This document shows positions 9,199 through 29,971 of a DNA stretch of 32,254 bases, piece after piece. The number at the start of each line of letters is the position of its first letter. Position 1 is the first letter of the stretch. The notes below the pieces were generated by a model, which did not search any database, had not been told where the DNA came from, and worked only from the letters and a program-made list of their open reading frames with translations. Source of the stretch: Lentimicrobiaceae bacterium. Its GTDB lineage: Bacteria; Bacteroidota; Bacteroidia; Bacteroidales; F082. The position numbers and the translations under genes are program-made. Location: positions 1-32,254 of the forward strand of contig JABJIE010000049.1 in NCBI GenBank assembly GCA_018661505.1, read 5' to 3'.

Positions 9199-9534
9199 CT
9201 ACTTCTTTGCAGTAGCCTTTTTAGCTGGAGCTTTTTTAGCGGCTTTGGGTTTGGCTTCAGCTTTTGGAGCTTCAGCTTTTGATTTCTTTGCTGTAGATTT
9301 CTTAGCAGCAGTTGTCTTCTTAGCTGTAGCTTTTTTTGCAGGTGCCTTTTTTACTTTGGCTTCTGCAGCTTCTTCAATTTTTACATCAACTTCTTCAACA
9401 ACGGGGCTAGCTTTCTTTGTAGCTTTTTTCTTTACAGGAGGAACATACAAGGGAGTTCTTTTTTTACGTCGTTTTACTCCATATGATCCAATGATTCTCT
9501 TTCCTTTCTTTGTTTTTTTATCTCCTTTACCCAT
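9199..9534 (-). CDS. 30S ribosomal protein THX with histone-H1-like Lys/Ala tail
   Basis: 111 residues. Residues 1-25 (MGKGDKKTKKGKRIIGSYGV and the following RRKK) match the small ribosomal protein THX of Bacteroidota, which is normally little more than this segment and sits in the head of the 30S subunit. Residues about 26-45 form a Pro/Lys linker, about 46-60 an acidic patch (VVEEVDVKIEEAAEAK), and about 61-111 a low-complexity run of AKK-type units (APAKKATAKK, TTAAKKSTAKK, repeated at the end). The tail resembles bacterial histone-H1-like proteins that bind nucleic acid. Whether the protein stays on the ribosome, coats DNA or does both is not decided by the sequence. The ATG is clear. Confidence 0.8.
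   Translation of the reverse strand: MGKGDKKTKKGKRIIGSYGVKRRKKRTPLYVPPVKKKATKKASPVVEEVDVKIEEAAEAKVKKAPAKKATAKKTTAAKKSTAKKSKAEAPKAEAKPKAAKKAPAKKATAKK
9202..9357 (-). repeat. Low-complexity coding repeat (AKK/PAKKA units) in the THX tail
   Basis: The 3' half of the THX-like gene encodes imperfect units of Ala-Lys-Lys with interspersed Thr, Ser and Pro, ending in a near copy (PAKKATAKK) of the unit at residues 64-72. This DNA is prone to slippage, so length may vary between strains. Confidence 0.6.
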
Positions 9535-10371: not shown

Positions 10372-11925
10372 TTATTTGTTTTGATGTTCTGGTCTTAGCA
10401 AATCGTTGATGGTCTTAACCGGATTAAATGTTACCAAGGGAGTTTCGACAAAAACTGTTATCCAATCGGACATTGCACCATTCCATAATCCAGGTAATTC
10501 CTGTACCTTTAGACTACTATTTCCCTGTGATTTTATGGATATCAGTCCAGTGTTGGGATCTACGTAATCTTTTAGGTTGAAATTATTACCCTCAAAATCT
10601 CTAACCCCGCATACAAGGTCAACTGGGTTAAAATGGGATGAGTTAGCTAAAATATCTTGCTGATTTTTATCGGATAGGTTCATTTGTGATGACTCTACAA
10701 TTTGCAATGACCTACCTTGTGTAAAATCATTAACCCAAAAAGGTCCTCCACCTGGCTCTCCTTCATTTTTAACCATTCCACATACTCTTATTGGTCTGTT
10801 AAGTTTGTTAAAGAGGTGATCTATTTTTTCTATTTTATCAAACCCATGATATGAATCAGGCAGGAAAATATTTAAGTCTTTTTGAATGTAATCTTCAATA
10901 TCTGCAAGCTCCTGTGACGTAGGATTACCACTATCAAGTATTTCAAGATAATCAAATACAGTTTCTTGAATTTTTATGAGTAGACCTCCTATTACTTTCT
11001 TGAATTTATATGTAGTTTCTCTAAGATTATCAGGGACTACATTGTCAATGTTTTTTATGAATATAATTTCAGTATTTAGATCATTTAGGTTTTCTATTAA
11101 TGCACCATGACCTCCAGGACGAAAGAGAATTGAGTCATCTTCATTTCGAAAAGGTTTATTATCACTGGTAACTGCTATTGTATCTGTTGAAGGTTTTTGT
11201 TTGGAAAAGGTTATCTCATAATTTACTCCAAAACGCTTTTGATATTTATCTACCTTTTCTGCAATTAGATCATTAAATTTAGACTTGTGCTCAGGAGATA
11301 CAGTCAGGTGTATTCTTGATTTTTTGTTTTTATTAGTTGAGTAGATTGCTGCTTCCACAAGATGTTCTTCAACCGAGGTTCTTGGTCCGTCTTGGTAGTC
11401 ATGAAATAACAATAATCCCTTGGGTAAATTAGCATAATCCATTCCCTTTTTTGATAGGAAGTAATCAATAATAAGTCCCAGATCAAAATTAGAAATAAGA
11501 TTTTCAATTTCTAACCCATCATCAAGCATGAGTTCCTTTAGCTGCGGATAGAATGCAAACTTTTTTATGTTTTTGAAAAAAAGTTTAACAGGTATTAGCT
11601 CTTCATCATTGTTAAACAGATTAATACACTCTTTGTTGTTTTCAAAAGACTGGCGAAATTCATATAAGCCCTTGAACATTCTGCTTGCGGCTCCAGATGC
11701 CGGCACAAACTTTATGATTTTATAGTTATCATGCTTTTCCAAAAAATAATCTTCCAATTTATTGATTTCAGTTTCTGAAAATACACTGAGCCCATTACCA
11801 TCAGAGACAGGTGCTAACAAATCCATATATGGAAAACCGTTCTTAAAGTTAGATATTTGCTCATGTACGATATCTTCAGTAAGACCTCTTTTCTTTATTT
11901 GATTTATATCTTTAGTAGTAAACAT
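10372..11925 (-). CDS. DUF4301 protein with nucleotidyltransferase-like motifs
   Basis: 517-residue cytosolic protein of a family without an established function. Sequence features suggest a distant sugar-nucleotide pyrophosphorylase fold: a Gly-rich turn PASGAASRM (75-83) in the place of the N-terminal nucleotide loop, HLTVSPEH (206-213) resembling the 'I-M-T-S-x-H' strand of UDP-sugar pyrophosphorylases, RPGGHGAL (269-276) like their P-x-G-N/H-G loop, and FIKNIDN (289-295) like the V-D-N metal site. A second Gly-rich stretch, GEPGGGPFW, lies near 385-400. The family assignment is firm in my judgement; the enzymatic class is my inference from motif order. The gene stands alone, 84 bases upstream of the methyltransferase gene. 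Confidence 0.85.
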   Translation of the reverse strand: MFTTKDINQIKKRGLTEDIVHEQISNFKNGFPYMDLLAPVSDGNGLSVFSETEINKLEDYFLEKHDNYKIIKFVPASGAASRMFKGLYEFRQSFENNKECINLFNNDEELIPVKLFFKNIKKFAFYPQLKELMLDDGLEIENLISNFDLGLIIDYFLSKKGMDYANLPKGLLLFHDYQDGPRTSVEEHLVEAAIYSTNKNKKSRIHLTVSPEHKSKFNDLIAEKVDKYQKRFGVNYEITFSKQKPSTDTIAVTSDNKPFRNEDDSILFRPGGHGALIENLNDLNTEIIFIKNIDNVVPDNLRETTYKFKKVIGGLLIKIQETVFDYLEILDSGNPTSQELADIEDYIQKDLNIFLPDSYHGFDKIEKIDHLFNKLNRPIRVCGMVKNEGEPGGGPFWVNDFTQGRSLQIVESSQMNLSDKNQQDILANSSHFNPVDLVCGVRDFEGNNFNLKDYVDPNTGLISIKSQGNSSLKVQELPGLWNGAMSDWITVFVETPLVTFNPVKTINDLLRPEHQNK

Positions 11926-12064: not shown

Positions 12065-12148
12065 GCCCAGATGGCGGAAATGGTAGACGCGCATGGTTGA
12101 GGGCCATGTTCTCGCAAGGGAGTGCAAGTTCGATTCTTGTTCTGGGCA
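12065..12148 (+). tRNA. tRNA-Leu (anticodon GAG)
   Basis: The acceptor arm GCCCAGA (12065-12071) pairs with TCTGGGC (12141-12147), and A12148 is the discriminator. The anticodon stem is CATGG/CCATG around the loop TTGAGGG, giving GAG for CUC/CUU leucine codons. A long variable arm (TTCTC...GGAG) confirms a class II tRNA, and the T arm contains GTTCGATTC. CCA is not encoded. Confidence 0.95.
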
Positions 12149-28965: not shown

Positions 28966-28973
28966 TATTTTTG
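28966..28973 (+). promoter_or_regulatory. Promoter -7 box TATTTTTG before the SRP RNA
   Basis: Exact TAnnTTTG; initiation five bases on falls on G28978, which is exactly the first base of the RNA's terminal helix. A TTTG at 28947-28950 is too close to be an ideal -33 element. Confidence 0.65.
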
Positions 28974-28977
28974 CCGC

Positions 28978-29074
28978 GGGTAAGTCTCATACGACCAGCT
29001 CCCGCTGAATTCCCCCAGGACCGGAAGGTAGCAAGGGTAGGCGGTTGTAGCGGTGCGATATGAGTAGCTTACCC
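28978..29074 (+). ncRNA. ffs: Signal recognition particle RNA, 4.5S-like small type
   Basis: RNA partner of Ffh in cotranslational membrane targeting. The ends GGGTAAG (28978-28984) and CTTACCC (29068-29074) pair to close one long hairpin. The tip contains the conserved SRP helix-8 sequence CAGGACCGGAAGGTAGCA with a GGAA tetraloop. At about 97 bases with no Alu domain it is the small bacterial type. A promoter and a T-run flank it. Confidence 0.93.
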
Positions 29075-29081
29075 TTTTTTT
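29068..29081 (+). terminator. Intrinsic terminator of the SRP RNA
   Basis: The 3' strand of the terminal helix (CTTACCC) runs directly into seven T residues, so the RNA's own long hairpin plus U-tract would end transcription. Confidence 0.6.
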
Positions 29082-29898: not shown

Positions 29899-29971
29899 GA
29901 TTCGTTAGCTCAGCTGGTAGAGCATCTGCCTTTTAAGCAGAGGGTCCCGAGTTCGAACCTCGGACGAATCA
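29899..29971 (+). tRNA. tRNA-Lys (anticodon TTT)
   Basis: The acceptor arm GATTCGT pairs with ACGAATC, with A29971 as discriminator. The D arm is GCTCAGCTGGTAGAGC, the anticodon stem TCTGC/GCAGA with loop CTTTTAA, and the T arm CCGAGTTCGAACCTCGG. CCA is not encoded. Confidence 0.97.

Follow-up and report, generated by a model that had tools for sequence, protein, structure and literature searches.

Predicted fold and conserved active-site residues support placing DUF4301 in the UDP-glucose/UDP-GlcNAc pyrophosphorylase superfamily as a divergent member of Bacteroidota type

The DUF4301 gene and its family

The window, meaning the whole 32,254-nucleotide stretch of Lentimicrobiaceae DNA that was analysed, carries on its minus strand an open reading frame of 517 amino acids that starts with an ATG at 11925 and ends with a stop codon closing at 10372 (Table 1). 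The encoded protein matches Pfam PF14134 (DUF4301) over residues 4–515 (E 3.2e-214) and is therefore a full-length member of that family; an NCBIfam scan returned no family up to E 10, the GalU model TIGR01099 included. Literature searches limited to main texts, one of them with the word DUF4301, found no assignment of function; among the papers covered, a single one mentions DUF4301, in one row of a table of proteins (PMC7035244). Just upstream of the gene is a tRNA gene (12065–12148, plus strand); elsewhere the window has a Bacteroidales small SRP RNA (28971–29078, plus strand) and another tRNA gene (29899–29971, plus strand). A Lys/Ala-rich protein of 111 amino acids encoded at 9199–9534 on the minus strand has repeated A-K-K-A runs and, by eye, a histone-like basic look.

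In a set of 41 genomes, made up of the window's own and its near relatives, 40 have DUF4301; in a sample of 296 genomes from across the phylum, 51 do. Each has a single match, apart from three genomes where two neighbouring pieces of one gene were matched (G032:C11:24410-25972, G180:C42:34110-35705 and G329:C54:1491357-1492843); in G329 an internal stop leaves two separate frames. Conservation was read from an alignment of 141 rows, made up of proteins from 140 loci plus the window protein, with redundancy kept and one locus (L126) being the window's own gene again. The loci came from GTDB contigs (80, the top-ranking among 584 confirmed), from the relatives (30) and from the phylum-wide genomes (30).

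Table 1. The DUF4301 gene and the assigned or predicted elements of its product
Feature	Coordinates	Strand	Basis
DUF4301 protein, 517 aa, UGPase/UAP-like predicted fold	10372..11925	-	ORF, Pfam match, model, structure comparison
PASGAASRM, residues 75-83, putative nucleotide-binding loop (counterpart of L-N-G-G-x-G-T)	11677..11703	-	conservation; motif, order, fold
Residues 86-167, mostly helical stretch from nucleotide loop to P-K, ~80 residues longer than in UGPase L142	11425..11670	-	model secondary structure; L142 spacing
P168-K169, likely catalytic lysine (A. nidulans UGP Lys135)	11419..11424	-	141/141; element order, inferred
HLTVSPEH, residues 206-213, predicted end of second strand and start of next helix	11287..11310	-	model, conservation
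Q243, likely base-site Gln (A. nidulans UGP Gln198)	11197..11199	-	141/141; Gln-to-His spacing 30; inferred
RPGGHGAL, residues 269-276, GHG loop, H273 as putative counterpart of phosphate-binding His228	11098..11121	-	hhalign global mode, conservation, PMC10470519 (part of text)
FIKNIDN, residues 289-295, N292 and putative metal-site D294 (Asn256, Asp258)	11041..11061	-	hhalign global mode, conservation, PMC10470519 (part of text)
E411 of VESSQ, putative sugar-site Glu (Glu307)	10693..10695	-	hhalign, conservation, PMC10470519 (part of text)
N433 of HFNPVD, putative sugar-site Asn (Asn329)	10627..10629	-	hhalign, conservation, PMC10470519 (part of text)
FNPVK, residues 500-504, K504 as putative counterpart of Lys403	10414..10428	-	hhalign, conservation, PMC10470519 (part of text)

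Predicted fold and homology to UDP-sugar pyrophosphorylases

A sequence-only reading of the window had singled out four motifs in this protein, at residues 75–83, 206–213, 269–276 and 289–295, as falling in the order known from UDP-sugar pyrophosphorylases, and had proposed that DUF4301 may be a divergent nucleotidyltransferase. The motifs lie exactly at these positions in the translated frame and prove nearly invariant in the family. Residues P75, A76, S77, G78, A79, A80, R82 and T208 are the same in all 141 rows, as are R269, P270, G272, H273, G274, A275 and L276 of the third motif and F289, K291, N292, D294 and N295 of the fourth. Close behind are M83 and S210 (140 rows each), H206 (139), H213 and I293 (138 each), while G271 (123) and S81 (116, with Thr in 25) are more variable. 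The second motif had been described as a T-S-x-H strand; it is present and conserved, but in the model its T-x-S-x-x-H stretch (208–213) runs from the last part of a strand into the beginning of the helix that follows. This stretch also lies outside the set of catalytic residues named for Aspergillus nidulans UDP-glucose pyrophosphorylase (UGP) in the accessible part of its description (PMC10470519).

An AlphaFold model of the window protein, built from a 58-row alignment, reached a pLDDT of 91.5 and a pTM of 0.91 and has a GT-A-like core with UGPase topology. Along the chain it runs through a strand (70–74), the nucleotide loop, the P-K pair, a short strand (173–175), a helix (184–195), a strand (202–208), a helix (211–232), a strand (235–241), Q243, the GHG loop with its helix (272–281) and a further strand (287–290). 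Foldseek gave 54 matches in the PDB at E up to 0.001, and the best 50 of these 54 are all UDP-glucose or UDP-N-acetylglucosamine pyrophosphorylases, the top one with an E of 6.1e-11 and a TM-score of 0.46 by query length. VIA-align placed yeast Ugp1p (2i5k) at the top, with a Z of 24.8 and 18% identity at 3.3 A over 319 residues, followed by other UGPs, UAP, USP and GlmU. On the strength of the model and these comparisons, DUF4301 almost certainly has the fold, and belongs to the superfamily, of UGPases and UAPs, as the sequence-only reading had anticipated. Neither outcome that would have spoken against that reading, a different predicted fold or motifs that vary within the family, was observed.

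Evidence from sequence profiles is fainter and is concentrated in the C-terminal part. The window protein itself has no match to Pfam PF01704 (UDPGP; curated cut-off 22 bits) up to E 10, though the UDPGP profile picks up 22 of 58 members of the family weakly, with an E of 0.0027 at best. Among the 41 genomes its sole match is the DUF4301 gene of G040 (1.4e-4, 21.7 bits), and among the 296 genomes it finds matches in eight, one of which is the DUF4301 gene of G049 (5.5e-4, 18.5 bits); both fall below the cut-off and cover UDPGP positions 240–348, the C-terminal part of the profile. In the other seven genomes the match is on genes other than DUF4301. Seven loci (L143–L147, L150 and L151, in G079, G054, G118, G073, G206 and G294) have open frames of about 1110–1144 aa that match UDPGP in part, and in each case the contig also carries a GalU-like match no more than about 4 kb away. 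By the curated cut-off, DUF4301 is not a member of PF01704; its predicted fold and the active-site counterparts described below place it with the UGPase/UAP superfamily.

Profile–profile comparison supports homology to UGPases in the C-terminal half. When the 141 DUF4301 rows, of which hhalign's own filter retained 101, were compared with four UGPases, residues 313–512 aligned with a probability of 79.5% (P 1.5e-5, score 49.8); another comparison, with three UGPases, gave a probability of 42% only. The score of 49.8 stands well above those of 60 column-shuffled UGPase profiles (26.8 at most) and of a reversed profile (24.2). The local alignment covers the C-terminal half only; when the posterior cut-off is switched off, the N-terminal half is aligned wrongly. 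A two-sequence GalU profile gave no profile–profile signal (score 16.8, probability 0.2%).

These results bear on the possibility that the motif order is coincidental and the fold something else. The missing PF01704 match of the window protein is in line with it, as are PDB sequence searches with the protein and with the 58-row profile, neither of which reached a UGPase; each returned one match (E 0.0056 and E 0.19, respectively) that was read as chance. Against this stand the model, Foldseek, VIA-align, and hhalign with its shuffled controls, which leave coincidence with hardly any probability. The motif match exceeds chance, since the Foldseek matches among the best 50 are all UGPase/UAP and the UDPGP profile weakly reaches family members.

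Active-site counterparts and proposed chemistry

A. nidulans UGP is described as having a uridine site formed by Leu121, Gly123, Gly124, Gln198 and Gly227, phosphate binding by Lys135, His228 and Lys403, Mg binding by Asp258, and a sugar site of Asn256, Asn329, Asn331 and Glu307; the role of Lys292, in the K-G-G sugar-binding loop, is there called uncertain (PMC10470519). The putative uridine-site counterparts in DUF4301 were assigned as P75, S77, G78, Q243 and G272, those for phosphates and metal as K169, H273, K504 and D294, and those of the sugar site as N292, N433, V435 and E411. All are the same in 141 of 141 rows save V435 (140 of 141, with Thr in one). Several lie outside the four motifs picked out beforehand, namely P168-K169, Q243, E411, N433 and FNPVK (500–504). 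In hhalign, G-H-G and N-x-D-N align in global mode and E411, N433 and K504 in local mode, and two spacings are equal in DUF4301 and A. nidulans UGP (Glu-to-Asn 22, Gln-to-His 30).

The assignments differ in firmness. All of the phosphate and metal residues (Lys135, His228, Lys403 and Asp258) have a putative match, in K169, H273, K504 and D294. K169 is likely to be the catalytic lysine, judging from the order of elements in the model, and K85 (138 of 141) is a less likely candidate for this role; Q243 is likely the base-site Gln, judging from element order and spacing. Although S77, G78, Q243 and G272 are invariant, the loop around the first two differs from that of UGP and a Gln leaves the base unfixed, so that Q243 does not prove the choice of base; the Gln and the GHG loop are compatible with UTP. 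The sugar site of glucose-specific UGPs is reproduced in part, with N292, E411 and N433 kept and V435 in fourth place. This replacement of Asn331 appears to be the one clear loss among the listed site residues. No counterpart of Lys292 is apparent in DUF4301 where UGPases have K-G-G.

Taken with the model, these residues suggest how DUF4301 might work. An NTP, most likely UTP, would lie on the loop 75–83, its base next to Q243 and the GHG loop and its triphosphate in contact with R82 and K169. The phosphate of the acceptor would be held by H273 and K504, the metal by D294, and the sugar by N292, E411 and N433. The acceptor phosphate would then attack the alpha-phosphate, PPi would leave, and an NDP-sugar would form. 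That the acceptor is a sugar-1-phosphate is a guess, favoured because the sugar-site residues are kept. R82, K169, Q243, H273, N292, D294, E411, N433 and K504 are each found in 141 of 141 rows.

It is conceivable that the UGPase fold has been kept and nucleotide transfer lost, leaving a binding or regulatory protein. The canonical G-G-x-G has been lost from the loop, and DUF4301 differs from UGP at the places of Asn331 and Lys292; invariance of R82, K169, H273, D294 and K504 in all 141 rows would, however, be unexpected for a dead enzyme, and this alternative is judged quite improbable. DUF4301 is thus viewed as very probably an active Mg-dependent nucleotidyltransferase, likely working in the manner of a UDP-sugar pyrophosphorylase, and the balance leans slightly toward UTP and a sugar-1-phosphate as its substrates. 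A family of unknown function in this way gains a predicted fold and active site along with a small set of assays; since both are those of enzymes that produce activated sugars, UDP-glucose among them, the family can now be assayed as an enzyme.

Substrate candidates, gene context and related systems

Gene neighbourhoods offer little guidance to the substrate. None of the 28 commonest neighbour clusters among 179 loci points to a sugar, and outside a single lineage with PnuC, described below, they include no recurring metabolic partner. The commonest is a divergent gene at position -1 in 25 of the 179 loci, RelA/SpoT-like by eye (seen in L028, L029, L031 and L033, among others).

A special case of the preferred UTP and sugar-1-phosphate pairing is that DUF4301 is the UDP-glucose pyrophosphorylase of Bacteroidales, acting on glucose-1-phosphate and UTP. 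UDP-glucose pyrophosphorylase activity has been reported in Prevotella bryantii (PMC4432691), as has a UDP-glucose-dependent glycogen synthase in this organism, which is without glgC (PMC7935935); should DUF4301 produce UDP-glucose, its gene may be the one responsible for that activity. In G270 and G278 a GT3 synthase match occurs together with DUF4301, with no UDPGP match and with distant GalU matches only (best 4.8e-10 and 1.5e-9). On the other side, five genomes (G089, G112, G186, G226 and G282) have the synthase without DUF4301, UDPGP or strong GalU, so that another enzyme must exist; GT3 over its cut-off goes only weakly with DUF4301 (4/51 genomes with it versus 6/245 without, P 0.07). 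G000 has no GT3 match and has four PF00483 proteins, which by eye we take to be RmlA, a GDP-mannose type, a MurU-like protein and one more of 299 aa. A PF00483 protein, GalY, has moreover been predicted to carry out uridylyl transfer to galactose-1-phosphate, in a prediction covering 70 gut genomes (PMC5583593). Glucose-1-phosphate in particular is therefore a doubtful acceptor, and serves as a good first assay and not as a conclusion.

The argument from a missing UGPase was rejected as proof of a UDP-glucose role. Of the 296 genomes, 9 have a GalU match that scores about 298 bits or higher (in 5 it is over the cut-off), 2 of the 51 with DUF4301 versus 7 of the 245 without, and across the 296 genomes absence of GalU or UDPGP does not track DUF4301. 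Co-occurrence was further compared in 53 hand-chosen genomes, 37 with DUF4301 and 16 without, by Fisher tests that, like the one on GT3, ignore kinship. In this set galT was found in 2/37 versus 6/16 (one by two short pieces; P 0.0065), a difference that is suggestive but was given no weight in view of the hand-picked genomes and the uncorrected kinship.

In one lineage the gene order is a thiamine-binding-like protein or GGGPS, then PnuC, a NadR-type kinase and DUF4301, with overlapping ends, and ArfB and a TonB receptor often follow. The names ArfB, GGGPS and TonB receptor are presumptive. The kinase is a separate upstream gene in eight loci (in L048 with another frame between) and forms one frame with DUF4301 in 13 of the 179. 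These fusions (L127–L136 and L138–L140, for instance L129:925-3036 on the plus strand and L127:1495-3612 on the minus strand) lie directly downstream of PnuC and overlap it wherever a PnuC gene was called. The fused domain matches AAA_28 (E 2.1e-38 and 3.1e-43) and the kinase part of TIGR01526, and the neighbour of a fusion passes the PnuC equivalog cut-off. The small thiamine-binding-like gene precedes PnuC in nine loci; the one tested scored 23.7 against a Pfam cut-off of 24.9 bits. No riboswitch reached the Rfam threshold in 12 loci of this lineage and the window, most of these loci having little upstream sequence, and a thiamine link for DUF4301 is not supported.

This arrangement raises the alternative that DUF4301 transfers nucleotides to a nucleoside monophosphate, NMN for example, and with its GT-A fold takes the place of NadR's adenylyltransferase half, acting after the nicotinamide riboside kinase. 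The consecutive, overlapping genes, the 13 fusions and the identities of the fused domain and its neighbour all fit such a role, and an NMN-using DUF4301 would be a new enzyme class. However, the operon continues with ArfB, so that adjacency alone is weak evidence. In 52 of the 53 genomes NadD exceeds its cut-off, the exception being G028 (98% complete; best match 3.0e-5). Among the 37 with DUF4301, 20 have no full-length kinase match, defined here as nearly the whole AAA_28 model at E 1e-12 or better, and 12 have no PnuC. Neither the kinase (17/37 with DUF4301 versus 10/16 without, P 0.37) nor PnuC (25/37 versus 13/16, P 0.51) follows the family. The window's genome has PnuC and the kinase together on a different contig from DUF4301, and L137 keeps PnuC and DUF4301 with no kinase between. 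Given the prevalence of NadD and the 20 genomes without a full-length kinase, a role in NAD synthesis is unlikely; use of NMN is considered very unlikely, and it is just as hard to credit that the fusions are a second, independent invention of NadR in Bacteroidota, with DUF4301 joining a nucleotide to an NMN-like monophosphate.

Among known systems, NadR itself, an NMN adenylyltransferase with a nicotinamide riboside kinase, is linked to DUF4301 by the fusion of the kinase part of TIGR01526 in the 13 loci, where the other half is DUF4301; a Pfam scan of the window protein found no NadR-like kinase domain, so that this protein is not bifunctional in the NadR manner. Of the bacterial GT-A pyrophosphorylases (GlmU and GalU; PF00483), GlmU aligns from DUF4301 residue 68 on (Z 16.6), and the loop run G-x-x-[ST]-R-M presumably resembles the loops of GlmU and GalU. 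Leishmania major USP (3oh0; Z 18.5) and UAP/AGX (6tn3 and 1jv1; Z up to 21.8, with 6tn3_B) share the predicted fold of DUF4301 at scores below that of UGP. The eukaryote-type UGP (PF01704, represented by yeast Ugp1p) is the best structural match. UGP ranges aligned to the model by VIA-align end at 371–411, and the C-terminal left-handed beta-helix domain of UGP is missing from DUF4301, since the protein ends 13 residues after K504. The loop reads S-G-A-A in DUF4301 and G-G-x-G in UGP, and P75 is separated from K169 by 94 residues compared with 14 in A. nidulans UGP, so that some 80 mostly helical residues are added in DUF4301. Around these differences, UGP and DUF4301 have a common order of G-H-G, N-x-D-N, E-S-x-Q, F-N and F-x-P-V-K.
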